From: a virus
Direction: 5' to 3' (one strand)
Virus record (IMG/VR): IMGVR_UViG_3300027791_000074
Coordinates: 1-33,635 of that record
Length of the DNA stretch: 33,635 nt
Shown here: positions 26-14,374 of the stretch, in pieces
How positions within the stretch are numbered: the first letter of the stretch is position 1
Layout of the letters: each line of letters starts with the position of its first letter
Program-made: the position numbers and the translations under genes
Notes under the pieces: generated by a model
Database searches by the model: none
Told to the model about the DNA's origin: nothing
The model's input: the letters and a program-made list of their open reading frames with translations, nothing else

Positions 26-53
26 TTGACTTAGATGATCAAGTCTGCATGAT
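26..53 (+). promoter_or_regulatory. Promoter fused to the ATG at 61
   Basis: TTGACT (26-31), a 16-bp spacer and CATGAT (48-53). Only 7 nt separate the -10 box from the ATG at 61, so the predicted +1 is the start codon itself. No Shine-Dalgarno sequence fits. This is the first of about 21 such promoter-start fusions in the window. Confidence 0.7.
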
Positions 54-60
54 TGTGGGC

Positions 61-777
61 ATGATTAAGCCAAAAAATATATATCCACTATCTCTAGGTG
101 CAGACGCCAAAACTGTAAAAGGTCAACTATTAGGTTATGCTACAGGTATACTTTATCTAGCTCCCGTAAAAGAAGCGGGATTTGGTAACGTTTGCCCAAA
201 TGCCTCAGCGGGTTGTGCCTCTTCTTGCCTCTTTACAGCGGGACGTGCTAGAATGTCCAGTGTTCGCAAGGCCCGTATTGCTAAAACTCAACGCTTTTTC
301 AAGGAAAAAGATGCATTTCTGGCCGATATTAGCTCTGCTATCGTAAAGATGTTTAGCTATGTAAAGAAGATGGAGTACAGCTTTGCAGTTAGATTAAACG
401 GCACCAGTGATTTACCGTTTGAAAAATTCGGGATTTTTGACAAGTTCGAAGATATTACCTTTTATGATTATACCAAGTCTAAAAGAAGAATGATGGCTTA
501 TCTTAAGGGAGACATGCCAAAAAATTATTCTCTTACTTTCTCACGCAGCGAGACAAATCACGATGATTGCATGGAAGTTTTACAGGCTGGCGGCAACGTG
601 GCCGTAGTATTTGCAACTAAAAAGAAGAAAGAGTTGCCGACTGACTGGAAAGGCTTTAAGGTTGTGGATGGAGACAAATCTGATTTAAGATTTTTAGATG
701 ACAAAAACGTTATTGTTGGCTTACGTGCAAAAGGCGACGGAATTAAAGATGAAAGTGGATTTGTAGTAAAAGTATAA
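61..777 (+). CDS. GP88-like phage protein
   Basis: A 238-residue protein resembling the phage GP88 family (Pfam GP88, first named in mycobacteriophages), whose function is unknown. The N-terminal half carries the family signature: LSLGADAKTVKG at residues 10-21, a GILYLAP segment, and a cysteine cluster C45, C52, C56 followed by TAGRAR. The cysteines could bind a metal, but that is inference. An in-frame ATG at 49 lies inside the -10 box of the promoter, so the ATG at 61 is the start and the mRNA should be leaderless. The stop codon overlaps the next start (TAATG). Confidence 0.8.
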   Translation: MIKPKNIYPLSLGADAKTVKGQLLGYATGILYLAPVKEAGFGNVCPNASAGCASSCLFTAGRARMSSVRKARIAKTQRFFKEKDAFLADISSAIVKMFSYVKKMEYSFAVRLNGTSDLPFEKFGIFDKFEDITFYDYTKSKRRMMAYLKGDMPKNYSLTFSRSETNHDDCMEVLQAGGNVAVVFATKKKKELPTDWKGFKVVDGDKSDLRFLDDKNVIVGLRAKGDGIKDESGFVVKV

Positions 778-1004
778 TGAAATATAAATTAAAAATAAGT
801 GAAAACTATTTGGATCGAGAATCTGAACGGATGTTACAATATAATGGTCTATCTTTAAAAGAATGGATCGAGAAATATTGCAAAAAAAATAAAATTAAAT
901 TAAATACTGATGATGACCTGACTCTAGGTTTTAAATCAGAAAATCAATTAAACTGCTTTACACGGCGCGGAAATGGGATTTTTCCTTACTTCGAGTTTCT
1001 ATGA
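777..1004 (+). CDS. Small hypothetical protein, coupled to GP88-like gene
   Basis: 75 residues, not recognised. The ATG uses the last A of the upstream TAA stop (TAATG), so translation is probably coupled to the GP88-like gene. The protein is charged and lysine-rich in its middle, with a short aromatic C-terminus (FPYFEFL). No membrane segment or known motif is visible. Coding is supported by tight packing and phage-style overlap rather than by family recognition. Confidence 0.65.
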   Translation: MKYKLKISENYLDRESERMLQYNGLSLKEWIEKYCKKNKIKLNTDDDLTLGFKSENQLNCFTRRGNGIFPYFEFL

Positions 1005-1051
1005 CAATATTAATCCTTGTAATAATTATGTTATTCATCTTCGGGGATTAG
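1001..1051 (+). CDS. Candidate 16-residue hydrophobic microprotein
   Basis: A 16-codon frame, MTILILVIIMLFIFGD, overlapping the upstream stop as ATGA (1001-1004) and ending 2 nt before the next -35 box. Almost every residue is hydrophobic, so it would be a minimal transmembrane peptide. A similar 14-residue frame sits at 18293. Too short to prove coding from sequence alone. Confidence 0.3.
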   Translation: MTILILVIIMLFIFGD

Positions 1052-1053
1052 CC

Positions 1054-1081
1054 TTGACAAACCTAAATATATGTAAATAAT
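1054..1081 (+). promoter_or_regulatory. Promoter fused to the ATG at 1088
   Basis: Perfect TTGACA (1054-1059), a 16-bp spacer and AATAAT (1076-1081), then 6 nt to the ATG at 1088. A leaderless transcript is predicted. Confidence 0.7.
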
Positions 1082-1087
1082 AAACTT

Positions 1088-1255
1088 ATGAAATATAACC
1101 ATATGTATGACGTAGCCTTTTCTATCGAGTCAAATAACGAAGAAGAGGAGGTTACTGTAGATGAATTAATTGAGGGTCTTGAAAAGAGGGTAATTCAATT
1201 AAAGCATGAAAACGACATTGAATCCTTCGGGTATTGTGATTCTTTTGAAAATTAG
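1088..1255 (+). CDS. Small acidic phage protein
   Basis: 55 residues, below common ORF cut-offs. MYDVAFSIE at residues 6-14, then an acidic run, a V-x-V-x-E-L-I helix with a basic stretch, and a C-terminal ESFGYCDSFE. This layout matches a small, widespread phage protein family of unknown function (DVAFTVE ... ELI..LERR ... EAFGxCDTYE). The start sits 6 nt behind a perfect TTGACA promoter, and the stop is 2 nt before the next -35 box. Confidence 0.75.
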   Translation: MKYNHMYDVAFSIESNNEEEEVTVDELIEGLEKRVIQLKHENDIESFGYCDSFEN

Positions 1256-1257
1256 TC

Positions 1258-1286
1258 TTGACAGCGGTAAATAAGAATAGCAAAAT
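1258..1286 (+). promoter_or_regulatory. Promoter fused to the ATG at 1293
   Basis: TTGACA (1258-1263), a 17-bp spacer and CAAAAT (1281-1286), then 6 nt to the ATG at 1293. The spacer is 17 rather than the usual 16, and the -10 is weak. Confidence 0.6.
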
Positions 1287-1292
1287 GATCAC

Positions 1293-1838
1293 ATGAATAT
1301 ATTCGCTCTATCAACCGACCATGAAGTCGCCGCAAAATGGCACAACGACAAGCATTGCGTCAAAATGGTTACAGAAATCATGCAATGTTTATCTTGTGCT
1401 GTCATACGGCATGAGACTCCAACCGAGTTATTACCACTAAGTAAGAAGGGCACACCAGTAAAAGGTGGTTACCATCATCATCCTAGCTCTATTTGGGCGG
1501 GAAATACTAAAGGAAATTTCGAATGGTTGTGTCATCATGGCATTTCGTTAGCCAAAGAATACACAAGACGCTATAACAAGACTCATTTTTGTGAGGGTGT
1601 TATTACCAGACTCTTTTCTTTGATTGATTATATCCCAGAGGGAAACATGGAAGATTTTGCAGTTGCTATATCAGAAGACTCAGAATGTCGCAAAATAAAT
1701 AGCTTTGAAGACCTTCATCCAGTAACGAAATATAGATTATATTATAAGATTGATAAGGCACATCTGGCAAACTGGAAAGCCAACAAGCCTCATTGGTATG
1801 ATTACTCGATAGAAAAAATTATTGAAACATCAATTTAA
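1293..1838 (+). CDS. Conserved phage protein (DKHxVKMxxE family)
   Basis: 181 residues. It opens with MNIFALSTDHEVAAKWHNDKH followed by CVKMVTEIMQ, the hallmark of a phage family common in cyanophages and other marine phages. Conserved His residues follow (HHHPSSIWAG near residue 61), then an NFEWL segment and a KAHLANWKANKPHWY tail. The family is often annotated hypothetical. The His/Asp-rich N-terminus suggests metal or nucleic-acid chemistry, but that is inference. Translated from a predicted leaderless mRNA, with the next promoter immediately downstream. Confidence 0.8.
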   Translation: MNIFALSTDHEVAAKWHNDKHCVKMVTEIMQCLSCAVIRHETPTELLPLSKKGTPVKGGYHHHPSSIWAGNTKGNFEWLCHHGISLAKEYTRRYNKTHFCEGVITRLFSLIDYIPEGNMEDFAVAISEDSECRKINSFEDLHPVTKYRLYYKIDKAHLANWKANKPHWYDYSIEKIIETSI

Positions 1839-1841
1839 TGG

Positions 1842-1869
1842 TTGACAATGGGGTTAAACCCAACATACT
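1842..1869 (+). promoter_or_regulatory. Promoter fused to the ATG at 1876
   Basis: TTGACA (1842-1847), a 16-bp spacer and CATACT (1864-1869), then 6 nt to the ATG at 1876. The same CATACT -10 box recurs at 4525, 11644 and 12037. Confidence 0.75.
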
Positions 1870-1875
1870 GTAGGT

Positions 1876-2328
1876 ATGAATAAATTAACCACACCTCTCT
1901 CCGCCTTCTTAGTAGTAATAGTATTTATAATTTTTACCATCGTTGCAGGCTCGTTGCAAGGCGCAACAATAACAGATGTTATTTATGCCATAGAGAATGT
2001 TGAGTCAAATTGTAAACCTTATGCTATAAATACAAAAGAAAATGCTATTGGTTGCTTGCAAATACGACCAATTATGATTGCCGACTACAATCGGATTACT
2101 GGAGAAGATTTGTCACACGATGTTGCATACGACAGGGCAATGGCTTATATCATTGCATCCGCAATCTTTAATCATTATATGAAAGGTATTGACAAACCTA
2201 ACGCAAAGCATTTAGCTTTTATATGGAATGGTGGTGGCTCAGCTTGGAAACGAGTAAATAACCCTCAAAACGACCAGAAGCAGAAAAATCTTGAAATATA
2301 CTGGAAAAAAGTAAAAATACATTTATGA
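1876..2328 (+). CDS. Membrane-anchored lytic transglycosylase-like protein
   Basis: 150 residues. A hydrophobic N-terminal segment (about residues 8-29) is a signal anchor or signal peptide. A lysozyme-like transglycosylase domain follows: the catalytic Glu is probably E43 in ENVES, then GCLQIRP (59-65) and a FIWNGGG motif (residues 115-121) in place of the usual AYNGG. It would cleave peptidoglycan from the periplasmic side. It is far from the holin-like gene at 29.4 kb, so it may be an early muralytic protein rather than the main endolysin. Its stop overlaps the next start (ATGA). Confidence 0.75.
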   Translation: MNKLTTPLSAFLVVIVFIIFTIVAGSLQGATITDVIYAIENVESNCKPYAINTKENAIGCLQIRPIMIADYNRITGEDLSHDVAYDRAMAYIIASAIFNHYMKGIDKPNAKHLAFIWNGGGSAWKRVNNPQNDQKQKNLEIYWKKVKIHL

Positions 2329-2498
2329 ACAAAGAGTCAAAAAAGATTGAAGAAGCAATTGAATATGCAGATGCCAAAGTCGCACAAAGAATGGGCGATT
2401 CAAGATGGACGGAAACAGATGGCACAGAGCATTATACAGACAGAGCACAAGATTTGTTTAACAAATACTATGATAGCTTTCAAAGACTAATAATATAA
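2325..2498 (+). CDS. Small hypothetical protein
   Basis: 57 residues, not recognised. It starts at an ATGA overlap with the transglycosylase-like gene, so it is translationally coupled. The sequence is charged and mostly helical (KKIEEAIEYADAKVAQRMG), with an acidic and polar centre. It ends 12 nt before tRNA-Lys. It could be a cytosolic partner of the membrane enzyme, but nothing in the sequence proves it. Confidence 0.6.
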   Translation: MNKESKKIEEAIEYADAKVAQRMGDSRWTETDGTEHYTDRAQDLFNKYYDSFQRLII

Positions 2499-2510
2499 AT
2501 TAAAATTTAC

Positions 2511-2586
2511 GCATCCTTAGCTCAATCGGTAGAGCAGTTGACTTTTAATCAATTGGTTCTGGGTTCAAGTCCCAGAGGATGTACCA
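2511..2586 (+). tRNA. tRNA-Lys (UUU)
   Basis: A full cloverleaf of 76 nt with encoded CCA. Acceptor GCATCCT/AGGATGT (first pair G-U), D arm GCTC/GAGC, anticodon loop CTTTTAA giving UUU, T arm CTGGG/CCCAG with loop TTCAAGT. AAA codons are abundant in this AT-rich phage, so it plausibly supports phage codon use. Confidence 0.96.
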
Positions 2587-2592
2587 TACTTA

Positions 2593-2669
2593 GCCCCTAT
2601 CGTCTAGTCTGGTTAGGACACCGCGTTTTCATCGCGTCAACCACGGTTCGAATCCGTGTAGGGGTGCCA
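2593..2669 (+). tRNA. tRNA-Glu (UUC)
   Basis: A cloverleaf of 77 nt with encoded CCA, 6 nt after tRNA-Lys. Acceptor GCCCCTA/TAGGGGT, D arm GTCT/GGAC, anticodon loop TTTTCAT giving UUC, T loop TTCGAAT. The anticodon stem has one mismatch at its outer pair. It reads GAA, frequent in the small acidic proteins nearby. A T-rich stretch follows. Confidence 0.95.
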
Positions 2670-2686
2670 TTTTTTTTAAAAAGATC

Positions 2687-2714
2687 TTGACACAACCACA
2701 ATCTTCAACATTAT
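2687..2714 (+). promoter_or_regulatory. Promoter fused to the ATG at 2722
   Basis: TTGACA (2687-2692), a 16-bp spacer and CATTAT (2709-2714), then 7 nt to the ATG at 2722. Confidence 0.7.
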
Positions 2715-2721
2715 AGATAAC

Positions 2722-3039
2722 ATGAATGCAGAAAAAGTAAAAAGCTTTATTAGAAATAAATGCCTTAAAGCAGTCGAGGCAAAGCCCAATGAGGATGGTA
2801 TCCTTGTTTTAAGTCGCGATGAAAACGATGCATACTCAAGTGTTAAGAGTAGGTGGGAAGGCTTTTACAAATCATGTGAATTCTGGAACTGGAACTACGG
2901 ATATGCCGAAGTAGCCAAAGATATTATAGATAACTACGGTGAATGGGAGAGGAAAGACCTATATGAGTTTATTAACTTCTACTTCGAGGATGATAAGTAT
3001 TCTGGGGAAATAGACCAAATAATTGAAGTTTTTGAATAA
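2722..3039 (+). CDS. Hypothetical acidic protein
   Basis: 105 residues, not recognised. Rich in Glu, Asp and aromatic residues (EGFYKSCEFWNWNYGYAEV in the middle, YEFINFYFEDDKY near the end). No metal or nucleotide motif is visible. It is transcribed alone from a fused promoter, and the next promoter starts 5 nt after its stop. Small size and acidity fit a host-takeover type early protein, but this is inference from position. Confidence 0.7.
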   Translation: MNAEKVKSFIRNKCLKAVEAKPNEDGILVLSRDENDAYSSVKSRWEGFYKSCEFWNWNYGYAEVAKDIIDNYGEWERKDLYEFINFYFEDDKYSGEIDQIIEVFE

Positions 3040-3044
3040 AATAG

Positions 3045-3072
3045 TTGACAACTTCAATAAAATCCGTATTAT
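3045..3072 (+). promoter_or_regulatory. Promoter with a 31-nt leader
   Basis: TTGACA (3045-3050), a 16-bp spacer and TATTAT (3067-3072). The first ATG of the downstream gene is at 3110, so this mRNA has a leader of about 31 nt, A-rich and without a Shine-Dalgarno motif, ending in AATATATTATG. Confidence 0.7.
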
Positions 3073-3109
3073 GTGTAAATAGTAGTTCACAAGTAAAAAA
3101 AAATATATT

Positions 3110-3244
3110 ATGAAATATGTAACAACAGCAATCAACTGGGTGAAAGCCAATAAAAAGAAAACAGTAATCGGACTCGTAGTCGCACTAGTCGTATTAAACC
3201 TATTAGGTGTAATCGGTGGTGGCTCCGCAGTAATCGCAGAATAA
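3110..3244 (+). CDS. Small single-pass membrane protein
   Basis: 44 residues. A basic segment NKKKTV (residues 14-19) precedes one transmembrane helix (about 19-38, VIGLVVALVVLNLLGVIGGG). The positive-inside rule puts the N-terminus in the cytoplasm. The start context is AATATATTATG. It is followed after 2 nt by another membrane protein gene, suggesting the two are made together. Function unknown. Confidence 0.65.
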   Translation: MKYVTTAINWVKANKKKTVIGLVVALVVLNLLGVIGGGSAVIAE

Positions 3245-3246
3245 CC

Positions 3247-3447
3247 ATGATCATAGAAATCTTACTAATCCTCGCAGGCTTTATTGCAGGTATCTTAGTT
3301 GCTCGTAACAACGCAACAAAAGTTAACCGCGCAGTTGAAGATGTGGCTGAACTTTATGAAAAAGCTCAAGCAGAAATTGCTGAACTTAAAACTAAAGCTC
3401 AAAAGCCCGCGAAAAAGACCACAAAAAAGCCGACCAAAAAGTCGTAA
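3247..3447 (+). CDS. Membrane-anchored coiled-coil protein with Lys-rich tail
   Basis: 66 residues in three parts: an N-terminal transmembrane helix (2-19, IIEILLILAGFIAGILVA), a helix with heptad-like pattern (25-50), and a basic tail of Lys, Pro and Thr repeats (KKTTKKPTKKS). The tail could contact nucleic acid or acidic lipids at the membrane. It begins 2 nt after the stop of the 44-residue membrane protein, so the pair is an operon. No family recognised. Confidence 0.7.
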   Translation: MIIEILLILAGFIAGILVARNNATKVNRAVEDVAELYEKAQAEIAELKTKAQKPAKKTTKKPTKKS

Positions 3448-3669
3448 TCGTTCTTTGCAATTTTGCAAATAATATAAAATACTATTCGCGAGGGTAACAT
3501 TTTCGGATGCCTCGTGGTAAAGCCCAACTCAATCGAGATAGAAGCATGTGCAAATATGTGATAAGGGTGTGTTAGGTTTTATATTATACTATTTGTCTTG
3601 AATGGATGGAATCATGTATGAGAAAATAATTTTGTTAATTAAATTATTTAGAAGATGTGAACTTCATTC
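3448..3669 (+). other. Non-coding stretch with stem-loops
   Basis: No convincing ORF. A perfect 7-bp inverted repeat TTTGCAA/TTGCAAA (3454-3469) follows the upstream stop without a T-run. A 7-bp stem CGCGAGG/CCTCGTG (3487-3493 with 3510-3516, one G-U) encloses a 16-nt loop. The unusual GC content of 3487-3530 against AT-rich flanks suggests RNA structure. It could be the 3' UTR of the membrane-protein operon or a separate small RNA. Confidence 0.35.
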
Positions 3670-3698
3670 TTGACAAATAACATCTTAAAGAGTAGCTT
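3670..3698 (+). promoter_or_regulatory. Promoter without a downstream ORF
   Basis: Perfect TTGACA (3670-3675), a 17-bp spacer and TAGCTT (3693-3698). No start codon with a usable frame follows, so it likely drives the candidate RNA at 3705-3943. Confidence 0.5.
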
Positions 3699-3704
3699 GT
3701 TTGG

Positions 3705-3943
3705 ATTGATTAATATTAATTAATATCAGTCTTAGAGTCTTGGCTTGAGGCGGTCAATTGATAATAACTCGGAAATAATGCCTTATTTTTCTGCAGAAGC
3801 CCAAACAAAAAGGGCAAATAAATAGGAGGTAATTACCTCGCCTAGGCTGACGAGCCTTGGAAACACAAAAAGAGAAGACGGCAGTCTGAGGGAGGTGATC
3901 AACCCCAAGAAAAAAAGGAGGCATCCATTGATCATATTTTTTT
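3705..3943 (+). ncRNA. Candidate small RNA with three Shine-Dalgarno-like motifs
   Basis: About 240 nt without a + strand gene, bounded by a TTGACA promoter and by a stem TGATCAA/TTGATCA (3896-3902 with 3928-3934) followed by a seven-T run (3937-3943), which looks like a terminator. Inside are a stem AGGCT/AGCCT (3844-3857), a 14-nt palindrome GAGGTAATTACCTC (3826-3839), and three anti-SD-complementary motifs: AGGAGGT (3824-3830), GGAGGTGATC (3891-3900, 10-nt complement of the usual 16S 3' end) and AAAGGAGG (3914-3921). Most phage genes here lack Shine-Dalgarno sites, so the clustering is odd. Function unknown. Confidence 0.4.
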
Positions 3944-3952
3944 AGAAAAGTA

Positions 3953-3980
3953 TTGACAGATGTAATTAAAGATACATAGT
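3953..3980 (+). promoter_or_regulatory. Promoter fused to the ATG at 3988
   Basis: TTGACA (3953-3958), a 16-bp spacer and CATAGT (3975-3980), then 7 nt to the ATG at 3988. Confidence 0.7.
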
Positions 3981-3987
3981 TATCGCT

Positions 3988-4170
3988 ATGAAAATCACAA
4001 TCACACAAAAACAACACTACGGGACTTACTACTTTTATCCTAACTGCGACAATTCTGAACTGTTTATAAAACTAACTGGCAGAAAAACCTTGACATTCGA
4101 TGATATCAAAGTTATCAAAGGTTTAGGCTATGAAGTCGAGGTCGCTCAAGAAAGCGTTGTTAAATTTTAA
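3988..4170 (+). CDS. Small conserved phage protein (MKITI...FYPxC family)
   Basis: 60 residues. The arrangement MKITITQKQ, YGTYYFYPNCDNS, TGRKTLTFDDIKVIKGLGYEV matches a small protein seen in many phages (start MKITIxQK, then a FYPxCxN segment and KTLT...LGxE/I-V). Function unknown. Monocistronic: fused promoter upstream, terminator-like hairpin at 4198-4235. A predicted leaderless mRNA begins at the ATG. Confidence 0.75.
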   Translation: MKITITQKQHYGTYYFYPNCDNSELFIKLTGRKTLTFDDIKVIKGLGYEVEVAQESVVKF

Positions 4171-4197
4171 TCTATACTTTTGGTGTAGTCTAGGTTC

Positions 4198-4235
4198 CCG
4201 ATAATCCTTTGTGGTGAGAAAATCGGTTTTTTTTT
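4198..4235 (+). terminator. Weak intrinsic terminator
   Basis: CCGAT (4198-4202) pairs with ATCGG (4222-4226) around a 19-nt loop and is followed by nine T. Stem short and loop long, so efficiency is uncertain. Confidence 0.5.
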
Positions 4236-4251
4236 ATTAAATAATATACTT

Positions 4252-4506
4252 ATGAATGAAATAACTGAAATTACCTGCTCTGCCGTCGATGAGGCCGTAA
4301 AAAAATTAAATAAAATAAGACTTAATAATAAGGATTCGTGGGTATTTGCTTTTGTAAATCTGAACGGCCTAGAATTTAAATTTAAATTTTATAACACCTA
4401 TATTCAGATTGCTGAAAATCCAGATGGCTTGCGTGGCAACGCAGGTATGGAAATGGATGTTGGACAATTTAAATCTTATTTACTTAATTTTTTAAAAAAG
4501 GCTTGA
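4252..4506 (+). CDS. Hypothetical protein
   Basis: 84 residues, not recognised. Mixed alpha/beta composition: a charged N-terminal helix (VDEAVKKLNKIRLNNK), then beta-like segments (WVFAFVNLNGLEFKFKFYNTYIQI) and a C-terminal MEMDVGQFKSYLLNFLKKA. The stop TGA (4504-4506) is inside the TTGACA of the next promoter. The start follows an AT-rich AATATACTTATG context without a Shine-Dalgarno motif. Confidence 0.7.
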   Translation: MNEITEITCSAVDEAVKKLNKIRLNNKDSWVFAFVNLNGLEFKFKFYNTYIQIAENPDGLRGNAGMEMDVGQFKSYLLNFLKKA

Positions 4507-4530
4507 CAAAAGAATTATGGTGTGCATACT
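4503..4530 (+). promoter_or_regulatory. Promoter whose -35 contains the upstream stop codon
   Basis: TTGACA (4503-4508), a 16-bp spacer and CATACT (4525-4530), then 10 nt to the ATG at 4541. The TGA of the -35 box is the stop codon of the preceding gene. Confidence 0.75.
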
Positions 4531-4540
4531 GATAAGCACC

Positions 4541-4942
4541 ATGACTAAACTATATCAAAAACTAGCCAAAGAGTCCAATGCACTCAACGAATACAACGAC
4601 TGTGCCGTAAAGGCCATAGCAATCGTTTGCAACATCAAGTATAAAGAAGCTTGGAGCCTAGCCAAAAAATTTGGCAGACGTCCTCGTGGGAGAACAAACT
4701 CTCTCAATGTCACCTACCCTGCGATCAAATCGAAGGGGTTCGACTGCACTCAGTTGGAGAATCATAAGATGAACAAGGCTAAGACCATCAGAGGTCTCAA
4801 GGCTTTGATCCCATCAAGGGGAGTGTTCCTAGTCTTCGTCAGAGGTCACATACTCGCCGTAAGAGGTGGAGAGATTCACGACTGGACTGAAGATCGTTGC
4901 CATCGAATCCAACTAATTGTAAGAGTGTCAAAAAAAGCTTGA
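4541..4942 (+). CDS. Papain-fold-like phage protein
   Basis: 133 residues. NDCAVKAIAI has Cys21 at the start of a helix. FVRGHILAVRGG has His103, and EIHDWTED has Asp114. The order Cys, His, Asp with this spacing resembles small papain-like/C39-like folds, and the whole layout is familiar from phage proteins of unknown function. Peptidase activity is an inference from these residues only. An earlier in-frame ATG at 4517 lies inside the promoter spacer, so 4541 is chosen. The stop TGA lies in the next -35 box. Confidence 0.75.
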   Translation: MTKLYQKLAKESNALNEYNDCAVKAIAIVCNIKYKEAWSLAKKFGRRPRGRTNSLNVTYPAIKSKGFDCTQLENHKMNKAKTIRGLKALIPSRGVFLVFVRGHILAVRGGEIHDWTEDRCHRIQLIVRVSKKA

Positions 4943-9148: not shown

Positions 9149-9154
9149 GCCTGT

Positions 9155-9437: not shown

Positions 9438-9444
9438 ACTAACC

Positions 9445-9639
9445 ATGCCAACATACAACATATCAAGAGAAGTTACTCATATAGAATACTTTGATGACGT
9501 TCACGCGGAATCACCCGAAGAAGCCAAACTACTTATAAAGGAAGGTTACTATCTTGACCACGAAGAAGTGATTAATGAAAAAGAACCTGAAATTCTTTCG
9601 TGGGCGGAAGTTATAGAACATCCAAACTCTTCAGGGTAA
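9445..9639 (+). CDS. Small acidic phage protein
   Basis: 64 residues: MPTYNISREVTHIEYFDDVHAESPEEAKLLIKEG, then an acidic C-terminal half with ILSWAEVIEHP. The pattern of a beta strand, V-x-A-x-S-x-E-E-A-x-x-L-I/A helix is common to small phage proteins of the DpdA-neighbour or DUF-type kind, with no assigned function. The in-frame ATG at 9349 lies inside the upstream gene and is not used. Confidence 0.7.
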   Translation: MPTYNISREVTHIEYFDDVHAESPEEAKLLIKEGYYLDHEEVINEKEPEILSWAEVIEHPNSSG

Positions 9640-9657
9640 AAAAATAAATTAAAATAG

Positions 9658-9685
9658 TTGAAATAAAACTATTTTATATCATATA
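9658..9685 (+). promoter_or_regulatory. Probable promoter fused to the ATG at 9692
   Basis: TTGAAA (9658-9663), a 16-bp spacer and CATATA (9680-9685), then 6 nt to the ATG at 9692. The region is so AT-rich that other -10 choices are possible (TATAAT at 9684). Confidence 0.45.
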
Positions 9686-9691
9686 TAATAT

Positions 9692-9880
9692 ATGAGCACA
9701 GAGTCAATATTAATTTTTACAATAGTTGCTTCAGGATTTATAGGGTTTCCATTATTTTGTTTTATTTTTTATATATGGTATGAGTATAAAGAAGACTACA
9801 TAGCCAGGGCTTGCAGAAGGGCTGATAAAAGATATTACAAGTGGGAACAGGATAAAAAGAAAAAGACAGATAAGTCTTGA
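9692..9880 (+). CDS. Small single-pass membrane protein
   Basis: 62 residues: one transmembrane helix (about residues 5-29, IFTIVASGFIGFPLFCFIFYIW) and a strongly charged, Lys-rich cytoplasmic tail ending DKKKKTDKS. Orientation N-out, C-in by the positive-inside rule. No family recognised. The stop TGA (9878-9880) is inside the next promoter's TTGACA. Confidence 0.65.
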   Translation: MSTESILIFTIVASGFIGFPLFCFIFYIWYEYKEDYIARACRRADKRYYKWEQDKKKKTDKS

Positions 9881-9904
9881 CATTATACTTTCTATCAGTA
9901 GAGT
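9877..9904 (+). promoter_or_regulatory. Promoter whose -35 contains the upstream stop codon
   Basis: TTGACA (9877-9882), a 16-bp spacer and TAGAGT (9899-9904), then 7 nt to the ATG at 9912. A leaderless transcript is predicted. Confidence 0.75.
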
Positions 9905-9911
9905 CGTAAAC

Positions 9912-10166
9912 ATGACTACTACTAAAATCACATTTGACAACTTCGAGCCTAGCAAACTAACACCTGCAGACCAAGTCCCTTGGCCTCACCCAGACTGCGC
10001 GGACTTAAACGACTGGATGTTCGAGAACGCAACAGAGGTGTTCGAAGCAGTTCGTTACCTCTCTATAAGCCAATACGATCTTGCCTTGTCACTTTGGCAT
10101 CACGCTGGTCGTCCTATTGAAGGCTTTGAGTCTGCACTTTGGACAAAAGAAGAGGCACTCGGTTAA
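9912..10166 (+). CDS. Hypothetical protein
   Basis: 84 residues, not recognised. An N-terminal loop with TPADQVPWPHPDCADLNDWMFENATEVFEAVRYLS, then a helical C-terminus with SLWHHAGRPIEGF. No metal site is clear, although two His and one Cys are present. Monocistronic, between two fused promoters. Confidence 0.7.
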   Translation: MTTTKITFDNFEPSKLTPADQVPWPHPDCADLNDWMFENATEVFEAVRYLSISQYDLALSLWHHAGRPIEGFESALWTKEEALG

Positions 10167-10173
10167 AAAAGTC

Positions 10174-10201
10174 TTGACATTGGTTTTTCAATCCACAGAA
10201 T
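10174..10201 (+). promoter_or_regulatory. Promoter close to the ATG at 10211
   Basis: TTGACA (10174-10179), a 16-bp spacer and CAGAAT (10196-10201), then 9 nt to the ATG at 10211. It leads a run of eight small genes up to 11642. Confidence 0.7.
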
Positions 10202-10210
10202 AGATAAGCA

Positions 10211-10432
10211 ATGAAAGAATTAAAACATTATTTTGCCAGTGTGCTTATCCGCACGGGGGAACACGAAACTTATAGCGACTACTGCTTTTCTGCACCTAAC
10301 ATAGAATCTGCAAAAAAAGAAGTAAACGAAGGTTACGACATAGGCGGAGACGACTGTGAGAGAGTTGCTGAACTTTATAGGCTTGACGAAGTTTCCGAAG
10401 CAGAATACAATGTCCTTAGAAAGTATATATAA
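10211..10432 (+). CDS. Small conserved phage protein
   Basis: 73 residues. YFASVLIRTGEHETYSDYCFSA then an acidic helix and ELYRLDEVSEAEYNVLRKYI. The pattern (beta strand with RTG, later EV-S/T-x-E-x-x-V-L) is familiar from many phage small proteins of unknown function. First gene of an eight-gene operon of very small proteins. Confidence 0.75.
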   Translation: MKELKHYFASVLIRTGEHETYSDYCFSAPNIESAKKEVNEGYDIGGDDCERVAELYRLDEVSEAEYNVLRKYI

Positions 10433-10433
10433 A

Positions 10434-10604
10434 ATGGATGAACAACTAGAAGAACTTTGGGAGCGTGAATTAACGCAAGACGACGTGATTGGAATTTTCG
10501 AAAACCACTCACAGACGGCTAAAGAAATAGCTTTATTTTTTAAACACTTGGGATACAGAGACATGTATATCGGATCAGAAGTATTCATTTGGTTAGGATA
10601 TTAA
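10434..10604 (+). CDS. Small acidic hypothetical protein
   Basis: 56 residues from the ATG 1 nt after the previous stop. The in-frame ATG at 10356 lies inside the upstream gene and is rejected. Helical: MDEQLEELWERELTQDDVIGIFENHSQTAKEIALFFKHLGY. Not recognised. Confidence 0.6.
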   Translation: MDEQLEELWERELTQDDVIGIFENHSQTAKEIALFFKHLGYRDMYIGSEVFIWLGY

Positions 10605-10606
10605 TT

Positions 10607-10750
10607 ATGGGAAAAGTAGCAACAGCAATTATTCAGATACTTTGGATTCCAATTGGCTTGACAGGGGCGATATTTGGTTTAGTATCAGACTACATAGAAG
10701 CATCGCATCTAAAAATTTGCGATTTCGTAGAAGTGGTAAAAAAAATATAA
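10607..10750 (+). CDS. Small membrane protein
   Basis: 47 residues with one hydrophobic segment (about 5-28, ATAIIQILWIPIGLTGAIFGLV) that can span a membrane, then a polar tail with one Cys. The start is 2 nt after the previous stop in a TTAATTATG context. Function unknown. Confidence 0.55.
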   Translation: MGKVATAIIQILWIPIGLTGAIFGLVSDYIEASHLKICDFVEVVKKI

Positions 10751-10754
10751 AGTA

Positions 10755-10919
10755 ATGAGAGATTCAGCTATAAACAGGCTACAGTCCGAAGTCAAGGACG
10801 GACGCATGGTTGAAGACGAAGCATTGGATTTTCTTTCTCTTTTCGATGAGGAGGCGGAGGAACATTCCGATGAATATGCTTATGATAATTTAATTCAATC
10901 ATTGGAGGATATAAAATAA
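10755..10919 (+). CDS. Small acidic hypothetical protein
   Basis: 54 residues, about a third acidic, helical throughout (SEVKDGRMVEDEALDFLSLFDEEAEEHSDEYAYDNLIQSLEDIK). Four nt after the previous stop. Its strong negative charge would suit a DNA mimic or a protein inhibitor, but nothing specific is visible. Confidence 0.55.
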   Translation: MRDSAINRLQSEVKDGRMVEDEALDFLSLFDEEAEEHSDEYAYDNLIQSLEDIK

Positions 10920-10925
10920 TATATT

Positions 10926-11093
10926 ATGACAATAGAAGAAAAACTAGCAGATTGTTTGTTCGACGCAATCGATGCACGTAAAGCACTTAGCGATACCGCT
11001 TTGAATCAACTTAAGGATGCAGAGGGAACTGAAACAACAGTCGGTGATTGTTTAGATAATATTATTGAAACACTGCGGGAGATAACATATTAA
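10926..11093 (+). CDS. Small acidic hypothetical protein
   Basis: 55 residues, not recognised. MTIEEKLADCLFDAIDARKALSDTALNQLKDAEGTETTVGDCLDNIIETLREI: two probable helices with two Cys residues. The start context ATAATATATTATG is the usual operon-internal one. The stop TAA is separated by one nt from the next ATG (TAATATG). Confidence 0.55.
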   Translation: MTIEEKLADCLFDAIDARKALSDTALNQLKDAEGTETTVGDCLDNIIETLREITY

Positions 11094-11094
11094 T

Positions 11095-11322
11095 ATGACA
11101 ATAGACATACCAGTTGAAGTATATGATACAGACTATGTATTATTTGACGAACAGACACAGAGACCTCTTGGAAATTTAGATATAATTTATTCTTACGAAT
11201 CAGTTATTGAGTTGGTTAACGATGGATTTGCTCTTGGCGAAAACGAAGTCTTTGTCAAAATGATAGACCTTCCAAAAGAATTGCTCCAGGAATATGCAAC
11301 TCAAATAATAAAAAATAAATAA
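11095..11322 (+). CDS. Small hypothetical protein
   Basis: 75 residues, not recognised. Beta-rich first half (IDIPVEVYDTDYVLFDEQTQRPLGNLDIIYSYESVIELV) and a helical, basic C-terminus. One nt after the upstream stop, so probably coupled. No motifs of known function. Confidence 0.6.
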   Translation: MTIDIPVEVYDTDYVLFDEQTQRPLGNLDIIYSYESVIELVNDGFALGENEVFVKMIDLPKELLQEYATQIIKNK

Positions 11323-11331
11323 AATAATATT

Positions 11332-11496
11332 ATGGAATATGTCGTAGACGTAGGCAGTTTTAATATTGACGAAATAACATATAATAAAATCCAGTCAATG
11401 GACTTCCAGGACCAGAGAAAATGGTTATCTAAAAAAGTAATTGATGGTTATTGTGACATTGATCGGATTATTGAAGATATTAAAGATTTAAAATAA
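11332..11496 (+). CDS. Small hypothetical protein
   Basis: 54 residues, not recognised. Starts in an AATAATATTATG context and ends with the acidic/basic mixed helix DIDRIIEDIKDLK. A WLSKKVIDGYCDID segment contains the only Cys. Supported by operon position and start context only. Confidence 0.5.
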   Translation: MEYVVDVGSFNIDEITYNKIQSMDFQDQRKWLSKKVIDGYCDIDRIIEDIKDLK

Positions 11497-11504
11497 TATT
11501 ATAC

Positions 11505-11642
11505 ATGAATAACTATAAAAAGCTAGAATGGATACATTTCGCGATTCAAGAAGCAATGAATGGCAATGTTGAGGAATTAAACCAAGCGATTAAATTTGTT
11601 GAAGATTTAAGAGAAAATTACTTGACACCCGCAGAAAAGTAA
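11505..11642 (+). CDS. Small helical protein overlapping a promoter
   Basis: 45 residues: MNNYKKLEWIHFAIQEAMNGNVEELNQAIKFVEDLRENYLTPAEK, a predicted helical hairpin. Its last seven codons contain the -35 TTGACA of the next promoter, read as Leu-Thr. Not recognised. Confidence 0.5.
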   Translation: MNNYKKLEWIHFAIQEAMNGNVEELNQAIKFVEDLRENYLTPAEK

Positions 11643-11649
11643 TCATACT
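11622..11649 (+). promoter_or_regulatory. Promoter fused to the ATG at 11657
   Basis: TTGACA (11622-11627), a 16-bp spacer and CATACT (11644-11649), then 7 nt to the ATG at 11657. The -35 lies inside the preceding ORF. Confidence 0.75.
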
Positions 11650-11656
11650 GTAGGGC

Positions 11657-11821
11657 ATGATTACAGCCACACTAGATAAAAACACATGGGTCGAAGTCTT
11701 AGGCATCGACGGGACTAATGCAATAGTAATTGATGAAGACGGACAAGACTCAGAAGTTTGTGTTGACCGCCTAGACAACATCGAGCATCAAGATTTAGAT
11801 CTAACTCCATTGGAGTGGTAA
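11657..11821 (+). CDS. Small acidic protein, paralogue-like to the 9155 gene
   Basis: 54 residues, below the usual ORF cut-off. MITATLDKNTWVEVLGIDGTNAIVIDEDGQDSEVCVDRLDNIEHQ: strand-rich and acidic, with the same order of motifs (W/V-x-V, D-G, V-D/DDDG, RLD) as the 78-residue protein at 9155. Both have their own fused promoter. Function unknown. Confidence 0.65.
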   Translation: MITATLDKNTWVEVLGIDGTNAIVIDEDGQDSEVCVDRLDNIEHQDLDLTPLEW

Positions 11822-11827
11822 AAAAGC

Positions 11828-11855
11828 TTGACAGCCACATAAAAAAAACTATAGT
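11828..11855 (+). promoter_or_regulatory. Promoter fused to the ATG at 11863
   Basis: TTGACA (11828-11833), a 16-bp spacer and TATAGT (11850-11855), then 7 nt to the ATG at 11863. One of the best matches to consensus. Confidence 0.8.
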
Positions 11856-11862
11856 ATTAATC

Positions 11863-12018
11863 ATGAACATAGAAGAGTTTACAAACTTAGAAGATAGCGG
11901 TTGGGGCGATGAGGAAATCATCAAAGAGATCGAGATACGTTGCGGGCTGAACAACTCAGATGCTTCTCGATTATATCTTAAATTAAAATATCAGAGATAT
12001 ATAAACGAAAAGGCTTGA
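11863..12018 (+). CDS. Small hypothetical protein
   Basis: 51 residues from the promoter-abutting ATG. The in-frame ATG at 11815 is upstream of the -35 box. GWGDEEIIKEIEIRCGLNNSDASRLYLKLKYQRYIN has the length and spacing of a small three-helix or helix-turn-helix unit, but this is weak. The stop TGA (12016-12018) lies in the next TTGACA. Confidence 0.65.
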   Translation: MNIEEFTNLEDSGWGDEEIIKEIEIRCGLNNSDASRLYLKLKYQRYINEKA

Positions 12019-12042
12019 CAACCTTATAAAAGTAACCATACT
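12015..12042 (+). promoter_or_regulatory. Promoter whose -35 contains the upstream stop codon
   Basis: TTGACA (12015-12020), a 16-bp spacer and CATACT (12037-12042), then 6 nt to the ATG at 12049. Confidence 0.8.
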
Positions 12043-12048
12043 ACAACC

Positions 12049-12267
12049 ATGACCACATCCAAAAACTACTACAAATTAGAGATGCTACCAACTGCATCTT
12101 CTCGCAAAGTTGAAATCTTTCACTTCGGCAAATGCCGTGAGGGTTTAGAAACGGCTTACAGTTACTGCTCAAACGCTTGTGCTTGGCGTATCACTAGCGG
12201 TGGATTCACAATCGAAAGCTCTAACACAACGCTTTTAGACTTGCAATCACTTTCCGCATACGTATAA
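12049..12267 (+). CDS. Small hypothetical protein
   Basis: 72 residues, not recognised. Polar, with CREGLETAYSYCSNACAWRITSGGFTIESSNTTLLDLQSL. Three Cys are present without a metal-binding spacing that can be named. Begins a three-gene operon, and its stop overlaps the next ATG (TAATG). Confidence 0.65.
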   Translation: MTTSKNYYKLEMLPTASSRKVEIFHFGKCREGLETAYSYCSNACAWRITSGGFTIESSNTTLLDLQSLSAYV

Positions 12268-12509
12268 TGAAAACCATGAACATTAAACAATACTACGCAC
12301 AACGTTTTCCCGAAGATGGTCTAGGCAGTGAGATAAAAGAAGATGTTACCTTTCTCGGCTTGTTAGATATATTATTTAGAAACTTAGATGTCTATGATTA
12401 TATGGGCGTAGGAGACAGCCTTGTAAGGGAAAGAGTGTTTCAAGGATTATCGGGATATACTAATTTAGATTATAGCTTCATCTATGATCTATGGTTGCAA
12501 AAAAAGTAA
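12267..12509 (+). CDS. Conserved phage protein (YDYMGVGDSxVRERVF family)
   Basis: 80 residues. The central LDVYDYMGVGDSLVRERVFQGLS and the C-terminal YSFIYDLWLQKK match a small phage family (VYDYIGVGDSxVRERLFE ... YDYIYDQWL) of unknown function. The ATG overlaps the stop of the previous gene. A short upstream segment FPEDGLGSEIKED is variable. Confidence 0.75.
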   Translation: MKTMNIKQYYAQRFPEDGLGSEIKEDVTFLGLLDILFRNLDVYDYMGVGDSLVRERVFQGLSGYTNLDYSFIYDLWLQKK

Positions 12510-12520
12510 TTAATAAAAAT

Positions 12521-12700
12521 ATGGCTAAAATATATAAATGCACGGCTTGTATAGAGGTAACAGTAGAAGCGGAAGATGAATACGATGTAGCATTCGAGGC
12601 AGGAATGCATCTAGACATTGGAGATATTGATTGGGATTTTGAAGAAGTCAAAGAAGTCGAACCTAACTCTCAATCTCTGACGAATGTCACGATAAATTAA
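12521..12700 (+). CDS. Small acidic hypothetical protein
   Basis: 59 residues: MAKIYKCTACIEVTVEAEDEYDVAFEAGMHLDIGDIDWDFEEVKEVE. Beta strand then helix, with the V-x-A-x-D-E-x-D-A pattern found in small phage proteins of the 9445 type. An earlier in-frame ATG at 12491 would overlap the upstream gene, so 12521 is preferred. Not recognised. Confidence 0.65.
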   Translation: MAKIYKCTACIEVTVEAEDEYDVAFEAGMHLDIGDIDWDFEEVKEVEPNSQSLTNVTIN

Positions 12701-12724
12701 TTTATTTTTTTCTTTAAAGAAGAC

Positions 12725-12752
12725 TTGACTTTATTTTTTGTGTAACTACAGT
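12725..12752 (+). promoter_or_regulatory. Promoter fused to the ATG at 12760
   Basis: TTGACT (12725-12730), a 16-bp spacer and TACAGT (12747-12752), then 7 nt to the ATG at 12760. Confidence 0.75.
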
Positions 12753-12759
12753 AGTAGAC

Positions 12760-13119
12760 ATGAAAGTAAGAGTATACCGCAACCTACATAAGAAATGTCT
12801 CTCAGTTCAGACCATGACAAAGAAGGGCTGGAGAGTAACAAAGCACGTTCAATCAATTTGCTTAAAAGACGTTTCATTTAAAGTATCTGAAGCTGGACGC
12901 CAAAGAGTTCTTAAACAGAAGCGTAAGAATGTCCACGCTTTAGTAGAGGGAGAAGAAATAGATCAGTTTAATAGCTCAACGTCACAAGTCAGCTACAACC
13001 CTTACATTTCATCTAATTTTTTCTTAAAGGAAGATCCAAATAAAAAAATACTTAAATCATACAGAGCCAAAGTCATGACAACTGGGATTGAGGTTGAAGA
13101 CTATAAGTTGAAAAACTAA
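12760..13119 (+). CDS. Conserved phage protein (MKVRVYRNLHKKCxSVQ family)
   Basis: 119 residues, basic. MKVRVYRNLHKKCLSVQTMTKKG then WRVTKHV, FKVSEAGRQRVLKQKRKNVHALVEG matches a protein family widespread in cyanophages and other tailed phages. Function unknown. The cluster of Arg and Lys (GRQRVLKQKRKNVHA) would suit nucleic-acid binding, as an inference. Monocistronic, predicted leaderless. Confidence 0.8.
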   Translation: MKVRVYRNLHKKCLSVQTMTKKGWRVTKHVQSICLKDVSFKVSEAGRQRVLKQKRKNVHALVEGEEIDQFNSSTSQVSYNPYISSNFFLKEDPNKKILKSYRAKVMTTGIEVEDYKLKN

Positions 13120-13140
13120 TTAATTTTTAAAAAAAAAGAC

Positions 13141-13168
13141 TTGACTCAAGGTTATTGTCTGCTAGATT
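13141..13168 (+). promoter_or_regulatory. Promoter fused to the ATG at 13175
   Basis: TTGACT (13141-13146), a 16-bp spacer and TAGATT (13163-13168), then 6 nt to the ATG at 13175. Confidence 0.75.
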
Positions 13169-13174
13169 CGTTAT

Positions 13175-13354
13175 ATGACCACAGTTATTGACTACCTAAC
13201 ATATCGCAACTATTGCCACAACAGAATGCTTTCTCCTAGTATTCCAGCAGAAAAATGGATTAGAATTTATAAGGATCAGCCAACTTTTGAAAAACTTTTT
13301 CAAAAAGAATACAAAAAACAGTTGACAAAGAAAAAGAACCTGTCATTGTCTTAG
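13175..13354 (+). CDS. Small basic hypothetical protein
   Basis: 59 residues, below the usual ORF cut-off. MTTVIDYLTYRNYCHNRMLSPSIPAEKWIRIY then a Lys-rich end (QKEYKKQLTKKKNLSLS). Basic, in contrast to the acidic neighbours. The -35 box of the next promoter lies inside its last codons. Not recognised. Confidence 0.65.
   Translation: MTTVIDYLTYRNYCHNRMLSPSIPAEKWIRIYKDQPTFEKLFQKEYKKQLTKKKNLSLS
13322..13349 (+). promoter_or_regulatory. Promoter inside the preceding gene, with a leader
   Basis: TTGACA (13322-13327), a 16-bp spacer and CATTGT (13344-13349). The downstream ATG is at 13392, so a leader of about 36 nt containing AACCAC and A-rich sequence is expected, without Shine-Dalgarno. Confidence 0.65.
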
Positions 13355-13391
13355 TTAGTTAACCACTTAAACCAAAAAACAAACTACTATT

Positions 13392-13652
13392 ATGGAAATG
13401 CAAAACACACTCACACTCGGACAAGCTTACATCGTCGATGACAAACCTATGGTCTTACACACACTCGACAATGGTCGCTTCGGCTTCACAGATGGTCGCT
13501 ACGGCTTCGGTCGCACACTTGGTGGTCGTGCTAGCGACGTAGAGATTCTAAACAATTTAAAGGTAGCCGAAGGCGTAGATGCCAAAGCTATACTTGACGA
13601 GCTTGAGAGAAGCGTCAATGACATGGCAACATTTAATCGGTCTAGATATTAA
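13392..13652 (+). CDS. Small hypothetical protein with Gly/Arg repeats
   Basis: 86 residues. The middle has two similar turns, NGRFGFTDGR and YGFGRTLGGR, separated by a few residues, suggesting a small repeated beta hairpin. The C-terminal half is helical (AILDELERSVNDMATFNR). Not recognised. Codon use is richer in C and G than in neighbours (GACGGT, CGCTTC), as in the genes of the 14-21 kb block. Confidence 0.7.
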   Translation: MEMQNTLTLGQAYIVDDKPMVLHTLDNGRFGFTDGRYGFGRTLGGRASDVEILNNLKVAEGVDAKAILDELERSVNDMATFNRSRY

Positions 13653-13668
13653 AAAAATGAAAATTGGC

Positions 13669-13696
13669 TTGACAAAGTCAATTTAATTAACATTGT
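13669..13696 (+). promoter_or_regulatory. Promoter fused to the ATG at 13704
   Basis: TTGACA (13669-13674), a 16-bp spacer and CATTGT (13691-13696), then 7 nt to the ATG at 13704. Confidence 0.65.
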
Positions 13697-13703
13697 TATC
13701 ATT

Positions 13704-13856
13704 ATGAATATAATTACTCCAGAAACGCTAGAGGAAAAAAAAGAATTAAAAAAAGCTATTGACATGGTTTTAAACGAAGCAGAAATTTCTGCTTTAGGCG
13801 ATAACAATAAAAAAGTTATGGAAGCCGTAGATTTAGTTAAGAAAAATTTTGTTTAG
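13704..13856 (+). CDS. Small helical hypothetical protein
   Basis: 50 residues, below the usual ORF cut-off: MNIITPETLEEKKELKKAIDMVLNEAEISALGDNNKKVMEAVDLVKKNFV, two charged helices. It lies directly after a fused promoter and is followed 69 nt later by a T-run terminator, so it is a complete one-gene unit. Not recognised. Confidence 0.65.
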   Translation: MNIITPETLEEKKELKKAIDMVLNEAEISALGDNNKKVMEAVDLVKKNFV

Positions 13857-13925
13857 TTAAAAAAAGTTATCAATAAACTTTCGTGGTGAAAAAATTGAAT
13901 TAAAAAAACTTCGGAAAGGTTTTTA

Positions 13926-13955
13926 ATGCTAACTCAAAAAGTTAGTATTTTTTTT
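13926..13955 (+). terminator. Intrinsic terminator
   Basis: ATGCTAAC (13926-13933) pairs with GTTAGTAT (13941-13948) with one G-U pair and a 7-nt loop, followed by eight T. Confidence 0.8.
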
Positions 13956-13976
13956 GTTTTTTCTTGACATCGTTAA

Positions 13977-14033
13977 AAAAAAGAAATATATTTCTTAAAT
14001 AACAATTAATTTTTTATCAGTCAGGCTGACTGA
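13977..14033 (+). repeat. First hairpin repeat unit
   Basis: The palindrome AGAAATATATTTCT (13982-13995), a TTAAATAAC bridge and a hairpin TCAGTC/GACTGA (14017-14022 with 14028-14033). It has the unit layout of the large arrays at 16.7, 18.4 and 19.4 kb but with a different stem sequence. A perfect TTGACA (13964-13969) precedes it without an adjacent ORF. The rest of 13857-14102 shows no gene. Confidence 0.6.
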
Positions 14034-14102
14034 CTACTAGACTATTAAAATTTAGATTAGCTTTTAATACATAAATAAAAAAATATTTATATTAAATAAT
14101 GC

Positions 14103-14130
14103 TTGACTTTCGCAAATAAATAATCATTAT
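14103..14130 (+). promoter_or_regulatory. Promoter fused to the ATG at 14138
   Basis: TTGACT (14103-14108), a 16-bp spacer and CATTAT (14125-14130), then 7 nt to the ATG at 14138. Last leaderless-type promoter of the + strand cassette. Confidence 0.7.
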
Positions 14131-14137
14131 CCTTAAT

Positions 14138-14374
14138 ATGTTAACCACATTTCACCAATGCGTCGAAGAGGCTAAAAAGTTTCTCGCAAAAAATAACATA
14201 GTTTGTTCTGAATTCGAGGGCAAATTATTTACTGGAGGTATTACCTATGGTCAAAGCATGTCTTGGCATTTCGAGATTGATCGTCTCAAGGGCAGATTTA
14301 CTAAACAGTTTTTTCACCTTGTCGTCAATCGACGGGATGATGGATATTATGAGGTGATTAATTATGCTTTGTAA
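14138..14374 (+). CDS. Hypothetical protein
   Basis: 78 residues, not recognised. A helical start (HQCVEEAKKFLAKNNI), then a beta-rich, aromatic part (GGITYGQSMSWHFEIDRLKGRFTKQFFHLVVNRRDDGYYEVINYAL), like a small alpha/beta domain. Monocistronic. Confidence 0.65.
   Translation: MLTTFHQCVEEAKKFLAKNNIVCSEFEGKLFTGGITYGQSMSWHFEIDRLKGRFTKQFFHLVVNRRDDGYYEVINYAL

Follow-up and report, generated by a model that had tools for sequence, protein, structure and literature searches.

Leaderless messengers, whose first codon is the 5′ end of the mRNA, have mostly been studied gene by gene in Escherichia coli, and at the genome-wide level in Actinobacteria and Deinococcus-Thermus. Among phages, lambda is named as a source of leaderless mRNA in two papers (PMC9031893, PMC3160421). 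On a larger scale, most middle and late mRNAs of the Thermus phage phiYS40 are leaderless according to a review, which also describes a rise of IF2 and a drop of IF3 (PMC3594737). As for cellular genomes, it is reported that a −10 region adjacent to the open reading frame (ORF) is common in Deinococcus-Thermus, concerning about 30% of ORFs on average (PMC12340547), and that bacterial leaderless genes can be recognised by a TANNNT signal some 10-12 bp before their start codon (Zheng et al., 2011; PMC3160421). As far as the passages returned go, full-text searches of the open-licence literature turned up no mesophilic phage described as carrying a serial leaderless cassette. The stretch of DNA considered here, IMG/VR record IMGVR_UViG_3300027791_000074, is a 33,635-base viral record with phage genes, analysed over its whole length and called the window hereafter. 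From position 1 to about 14.8 kb it is densely packed with small + strand ORFs, and many of these are preceded by a sigma-70-type promoter that runs straight into the start codon, an arrangement that is conserved in related phages.

The comparison with the described systems is instructive. Like phiYS40, the phage of the window would carry many leaderless genes in one genome, here predicted from DNA (22 in the window, and 25 and 41 in two related records, G002 and G006). Unlike phiYS40, whose leaderless class is described as middle and late and whose host is a thermophile, the window presents its candidates as a series in which −35 boxes are strong, spacers measure 16 bp and A-tracts are present; moreover, its lineage is uncultivated and its other starts are also devoid of Shine-Dalgarno (SD) enrichment. 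In placing the −10 box next to the start codon as a mode of expression across the genome, the phage recalls Deinococcus-Thermus (PMC12340547), which is, however, a cellular phylum, whereas the phage sites show a near-consensus −35 box and a fixed 16-bp spacer. The survey of Zheng et al. (2011) likewise concerned cellular genomes and not a phage lineage in which the −10 box begins with C at 13 of 22 sites (e.g., CATACT). Finally, the cI mRNA of lambda is also a phage mRNA beginning at AUG, but as a single gene and not as one of a series.

The initial annotation had listed 22 such sites on the + strand and one on the − strand, and all of them are found at the coordinates given. They are given below as −35 box, spacer, −10 box and gap to the ATG, with ranges that run from the −35 box through the ATG; elsewhere a site is called by the first base of its ATG. 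Sixteen + strand sites are kept in G002. Among those with TTGACA, N16 is followed by AATAAT N6 (1054-1090), CATTAT N7 (2687-2724), CATAGT N7 (3953-3990), CATACT N10 (4503-4543, where the TGA stop of the previous ORF, ending at 4506, lies inside TTGACA), TAGAGT N7 (9877-9914, the previous stop, ending at 9880, again lying inside TTGACA, and the aligned ATG of G002 being one codon downstream), CAGAAT N9 (10174-10213), CATACT N7 (11622-11659), TATAGT N7 (11828-11865) and CATACT N6 (12015-12051); N17 CAAAAT N6 (1258-1295) precedes a PF03013 glycosylase-like gene and is kept in locus L038 as well. With TTGACT and N16 stand CATGAT N7 (26-63, before a GP88-like gene at 61-777), CATAAT N8 (6309-6347), TATGAT N6 (8352-8388), TACAGT N7 (12725-12762), TAGATT N6 (13141-13177) and CATTAT N7 (14103-14140). 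The other six comprise TTGACA N16 CATACT N6 (1842-1878, before an SLT-domain gene), TTGACA N16 TATAAA N7 (6866-6903), TTGACA N16 CATTGT N7 (13669-13706, where the G002 orthologue aligns from residue 3), and three weak sites: TTGCTT N16 TACGAT N6 (9121-9157, whose G002 orthologue was not found), TTGATA N16 CACACT N7 (9410-9447), and TTGAAA with TATATA and an ambiguous spacer, scored as 18 (9658-9694, the start being located elsewhere in G002). On the − strand, TTGACA N16 TAATAT N9 ATG (31082-31121) has a similar counterpart in the related record G003, and may leave a leader of 2-3 nucleotides (nt).

The −35 boxes had been described as TTGACA-type, which holds for 19 of the 22 + strand sites (TTGACA or TTGACT) and not for TTGCTT at 9155, TTGATA at 9445 and TTGAAA at 9692, which are poor. 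The prevailing 16-bp spacer was confirmed by a simple consensus score at 20 of 22. The distance from the −10 box to the ATG, announced as 6-9 nt, is mostly tighter: 6-7 nt at 18 of 22 sites, the remainder being 4, 8, 9 and 10. A distance of about 6-8 nt is the mark of bacterial leaderless genes, and one further site, at 8 nt, falls within it. An A-tract precedes the −35 box, A being present in 14 to 20 of 21 sites at each position from −9 to −4 relative to TTG; this tract is itself preceded by T-rich sequence and followed by a G-rich position −3 (13/21) and C at −1 (17/21). Strong sigma-70 promoters carry an A/T-rich proximal UP element upstream, which this A-tract resembles. Altogether, the sequence presents the features of a sigma-70 promoter with UP element: TTGACA, a 17±1 spacer, a TATAAT-like box and an A/T-rich upstream region.

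The consensus score is lenient, as 33% of random positions pass the cut-off used, and it was rejected as a site detector for that lack of specificity; the significance of the series therefore rests on the spacing between the −35 box and the ATG. In positions 1-14800 of the + strand, an ATG lies 33-36 nt downstream of 18 of the 35 TTGACW boxes, against a mean of 3.1 (standard deviation 1.7) and a maximum of 11 in 5000 circular shifts. The same spacing is near background elsewhere, with 3 of 15 boxes in the remainder of the + strand (mean 1.0) and 1 of 23 on the − strand of the window (mean 1.3). One of the 18 matches, TTGACA at 2189, is inside a gene and is probably due to chance, while the sites at 4541 (38 nt) and 10211 (37 nt) are just beyond the bin. 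When only ATGs opening ORFs of at least 40 amino acids (aa) are considered, the top 4-nt bin, among those starting at 10 to 119, is 34-37, with 18 matches against a median bin of 1. At 61 and 4541 the mechanical ORFs begin further upstream (49 and 4517), so that the leaderless starts of these two genes would escape any gene caller that takes the longest ORF; callers relying on SD sequences or on the longest ORF will indeed misplace starts in such genomes. Pattern scans of viral contigs for fused and for spaced promoters gave at least 120 matches each, from which 80 and 70 loci were sampled respectively. In the 70 loci fetched by the spaced pattern, which served as a negative control, the bin held 82 matches against a background of 82.0, which rules out a general property of TTGACW in phage DNA.

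Fused promoters are not the sole type in this phage. TTGACA boxes at 3045, 4939, 5780 and 13322 lie 63-70 nt before ATGs on the + strand, which indicates that leadered promoters exist as well: 3045-3112, similar in type (65 nt from TTG to ATG), 4939-5004 (63 nt), 5780-5847 (65 nt) and, as a possible case, 13322-13394 (70 nt).

The conservation of the arrangement provides a second layer of evidence. G002 is a 141,669-base record whose terminase large subunit (TerL, locus L010) is 94% identical to that of the window. Matches were found there for 21 of the 22 fused-promoter genes, and TTGA with an ATG at 34-38 nt is kept in 16 of these 21. Across the 16 pairs, identity is 1.00 over the −35 hexamer (−35 to −30) and 0.81-0.94 at −15 to −8, decreases to 0.62-0.75 at −6 to −1, and becomes codon-phased after the ATG (0.88/0.92/0.72 in codons 11-20). 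G006, a 148,420-base record, is a distant relative, its TerL (locus L015) being 36% identical to that of the window. Under a common rule (TTGAC, an ATG at 33-38 nt opening an ORF of at least 40 aa, a NANNNT −10 box and a spacer of 15-18), the window has 20 sites, G002 has 25, G006 has 41 and the 20-kb locus L038 has 18. In G006, 37 of the 41 sites lie within three consecutive + strand pieces, a clustering which argues that a dedicated cassette exists there too.

Where would transcription start? In sigma-70 promoters the first transcribed base (+1) lies about 7 nt after the −10 box, which at the fused sites would place it on, or very close to, the A of the ATG. A start on this A would be expected to leave an initiator signature, a pyrimidine followed by that A. 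Indeed, C precedes the ATG in 12 of 22 leaderless candidates of the window, compared with 4 of 27 other starts of the putative early region (Fisher p = 0.005), in 28 of 41 against 24 of 130 in G006 (p = 6e-9) and in 11 of 25 against 18 of 116 in G002 (p = 0.005); in G006 a pyrimidine stands there in 41 of 41 against 71 of 130 (p = 2e-9). For G002 and G006, the starts used for comparison were taken at the first ATG of each mechanical ORF of 100 aa or more, and some of these ORFs are false genes. From the −10-to-+1 distance and this signature together, we infer that transcription starts on the A, and leaderless mRNAs are the best reading for the fused-promoter genes. The first 40 nt of the 22 ORFs are also poorly structured (on average −1.39 kcal/mol, versus −4.57 for internal stretches of these ORFs; n = 22, p = 5e-7), and their codons 2-5 are 53% A and 7% G, so that the 22 ATGs look like genuine starts. 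Nevertheless, 25 other early ORFs (−1.88 versus −4.42 kcal/mol) and 22 ORFs of G006 (−1.76 versus −5.37) begin in a similar way, and folding therefore does not tell leaderless starts from the rest.

It had also been proposed that no SD sequence is possible at such short distances. This is true of the fused sites, but it is not a peculiarity of them, since SD sequences are at or near background in the other classes of starts examined. In the window, none of the 22 leaderless starts has an SD 4-mer, and 4 of the 27 other early starts do (random 0.16); the counts are 9 of 83 for G002 (random 0.134) and 14 of 88 for G006 (random 0.155), compared with 203 of 405 in control phage contigs (random 0.145), the last three counts being restricted to ORFs of at least 150 aa. 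No SD enrichment was thus found among the starts examined in the window, G002 and G006, and these counts rule out SD sequences hidden in or near leaders. All 22 sites, which had been listed as ATGs, combine this start codon with the lack of an upstream SD, as leaderless genes do. Considering that the lineage lacks SD enrichment, the leaderless genes would be the promoter-proximal form of a generally SD-free style and not an exception to it, a style that points to a host initiating without SD pairing.

Altogether, we consider it likely that a series of sigma-70 promoters starts transcription on the A of the ATG and yields leaderless mRNAs, in a host lineage that is apparently independent of SD sequences. 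The + strand cassette (about 1-14.4 kb) would be read from promoters of host type, each composed of an UP-like A-tract, TTGACA/T, a spacer that is usually 16 bp long, a −10 box of the [C/T]ANNNT kind and a gap of 6-7 nt; RNA polymerase would then begin on the A of the ATG, the first codon becoming the 5′ end of the mRNA. As the host lineage apparently does not rely on SD pairing, both the leaderless mRNAs and the SD-less downstream genes of nested transcripts could be initiated. Initiation by 70S ribosomes, or by 30S subunits with IF2, and an early timing would be part of the same scheme. In the initial annotation this took the form of an early cassette translated from 5′-AUG mRNAs, perhaps by 70S ribosomes, with a synthesis that might persist when canonical initiation is inhibited; what stands of it is a serial and conserved arrangement that should give leaderless mRNAs, according to the spacing statistics, the conservation across phages and the initiator signature. 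The general idea has a precedent in phiYS40 (PMC3594737).

Several observations weigh against this explanation. A second and stricter tally of G002 (first ATGs, ORFs of at least 100 aa) is less clean at −1 (C6 T3 A3 G2), and T before the ATG is also common at other starts of the window (17/27). Where the gap is 7 nt, +1 could fall one base before the A. Five of the 21 G002 orthologues lack the arrangement, those of 1876, 6901 and 9445 having no upstream promoter and those of 9692 and 13704 lacking a corresponding start. No fused promoter is present in the 62 nt inspected upstream of the 8386-protein homologues carried by four other contigs (L033-L036), which attributes the arrangement to the phage lineage and not to the gene family. 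Moreover, the + strand of 1-15000 has a single terminator-like site, at 14770 (10 on both strands, 7.6 expected), so that read-through is likely to produce leadered copies of these genes too; nested transcripts are thus probable, and one gene may head a leaderless mRNA while also lying inside longer ones.

The first alternative, possible though doubtful, is that +1 lies 1-5 nt before the ATG, the mRNAs being nearly leaderless and initiated in the ordinary SD-independent manner at an unstructured, A-rich 5′ region, with no special pathway. The gaps of 7 nt at 11 of the 22 + strand sites and of 8-10 nt at three are consistent with it, as are the generality of SD-less starts in this lineage and the fact that the other early starts are hardly more structured or less A-rich than the leaderless ones; the enrichment of C before the ATG, however, fits a start on the A itself, and the gaps of G006 are mostly 5-6 nt (36/41).

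We hold it unlikely that the genes are mainly translated from long mRNAs, the fused promoters merely raising the level of messenger and their fusion reflecting genome compaction. The lone + strand terminator-like site would suit such read-through; so would the short distance from the previous stop to the ATG (30-66 nt at 15 of the 21 sites measured), the two previous stops that fall inside TTGACA (4541 and 9912) and the three G002 orthologues without promoter. Yet compaction alone predicts no fixed distance, and the sites at 2722, 3988, 6345 and 14138, which have 197-540 nt of room, still place their ATG 35-36 nt from TTG.

It is also quite improbable that the leaderless mRNAs are a phage tactic favouring 70S initiation while SD-dependent translation of the host is suppressed. 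Leaderless mRNAs are initiated mostly by direct 70S binding, as stated in a review (PMC9031893), and the shift of phiYS40 towards more IF2 and less IF3 (PMC3594737) would be in line with this tactic; on the other hand, the other genes of the phage are SD-less too, which leaves no SD-led competitor class within it. Lastly, despite a loose promoter score that a third of random positions pass and three weak −35 boxes among those listed, chance or reader selection in an AT-rich genome has a negligible probability, being rejected by the shift test (0 of 5000) and the G002 conservation, along with the recurrence in G006 and the lack of excess in control contigs.

The proposal of transcription from the A of the ATG offers a sharp prediction, namely that +1 falls on this base. 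Furthermore, with some 20-40 conserved fused promoters in each genome and SD signals lacking, these phages constitute a natural set of matched leaderless and leadered genes, including orthologue pairs that switch state between the window (1876, 6901, 9445) and G002.

An RNA element was also noticed in this region. Positions 6209-6277 (+) of the window match the transfer-messenger RNA (tmRNA) family over model positions 1 to 374 but lack the mRNA-like domain (49.4 bits, for a gathering value of 47), i.e., a tag-less tmRNA of 69 nt restricted to the tRNA-like domain and keeping G3:U70. G002 has a 70-nt copy, and a pattern scan returned 38 viral stretches, one of them being the G002 copy; the positions recorded outside the window are 6032-6101 of locus L021 and loci L316-L353. 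Pooling the copies of the window and G002 with the other 37 stretches gives 27 distinct sequences, of which 23 (63-84 nt) can pair six or more of the seven acceptor positions. Compensatory changes affect pairs 5 and 6 of the acceptor and pairs 2 and 3 of the T stem; acceptor pairing is favoured by construction here, as the strand was set at its best-pairing offset, and the search pattern itself fixed several letters, U70 included. No acceptor stem forms in the other four, which probably represent noise of the pattern search. Mycobacteriophage DS6A has a comparable tag-less RNA, which is reported to inhibit endogenous tmRNA in E. coli (PMC11915505). A broader proposal would join these elements: a widespread mesophilic phage lineage, wholly SD-free, would have its accessory cassette transcribed from AUG, with ribosome capture at the 5′ end as the main route, and the tag-less tmRNA of two members could block trans-translation of the host, amounting to a coordinated takeover of translation in a non-SD host. 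We regard this as rather unlikely in its entirety. Directly upstream of the tag-less tmRNA, at 6150-6185 (+), a short stretch resembles, by eye, the acceptor and D arm of a tRNA from which the other arms are missing, a feature called by no tool.

Regarding the record itself, the window encodes TerL at 26432-28333, a PhoH-like gene at 22445, an ERCC4-type nuclease gene and two tRNAs. Close named phages were not found, a megablast of positions 1-25000 returning a single 41-base match. The TerL search over 50,697 phage records matched 18, all below 60% identity, the best at 26% among the 15 matches listed; no Thermus phage appears among the organisms tallied for this search, which gives no sign of kinship with Thermus phages. 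In IMG/VR, 11 loci carry TerL relatives. At 23690-24385 (+) lies a sigma-70-family-like protein (phrog_1740; TIGR02937 under its cut-off), possibly a late sigma factor.

Several leads to the host were followed. The serine hydroxymethyltransferase pointed to no confirmed genome relative, the glycosylase alignment gave only one Heimdallarchaeota and one Woeseiaceae metagenome-assembled genome, and phage searches with TerL, glyA, the glycosylase, the 12760 protein and the DNA polymerase yielded only remote or mixed hosts. Among the loci examined, the serine hydroxymethyltransferase gene (31142-32284, −) was confined to the window with its sub-locus L004 and to L005 and L006, which match identically, and was absent from the G002 pieces; it is variable metabolic cargo. 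The pyrimidine-dimer-glycosylase-like protein (1293-1838, +) has 91% identity with its counterpart in L038 (17578-18120, −) and 97% with that of G002, compared with at most 42% among the matches listed for named phages, and a recent exchange of its gene among the phages of the window, G002 and L038 is possible. The small protein family of 12760-13119 (+) has homologues in 573 of the 50,697 phage records, mostly mycobacteriophages and Bacillus phages, and in 36 IMG/VR loci, several of which (L048, L052, L067-L070) show a promoter-like TTGAC...ATG directly upstream.

Beyond the cassette, at 15698-15840 and 17355-17490 (+), two DUF932-like genes have alike a promoter and a long leader of related sequence (TTGACTCG...TTTTAT...CGTTCCTTCTCAGTTTTCCGCAAGT...), unlike the fused promoters. 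The AT-rich intergenic spacers of 14800-19600 contain, by eye, many inverted repeats of the GTATC...GATAC type and elements similar to attagccggtcttat.

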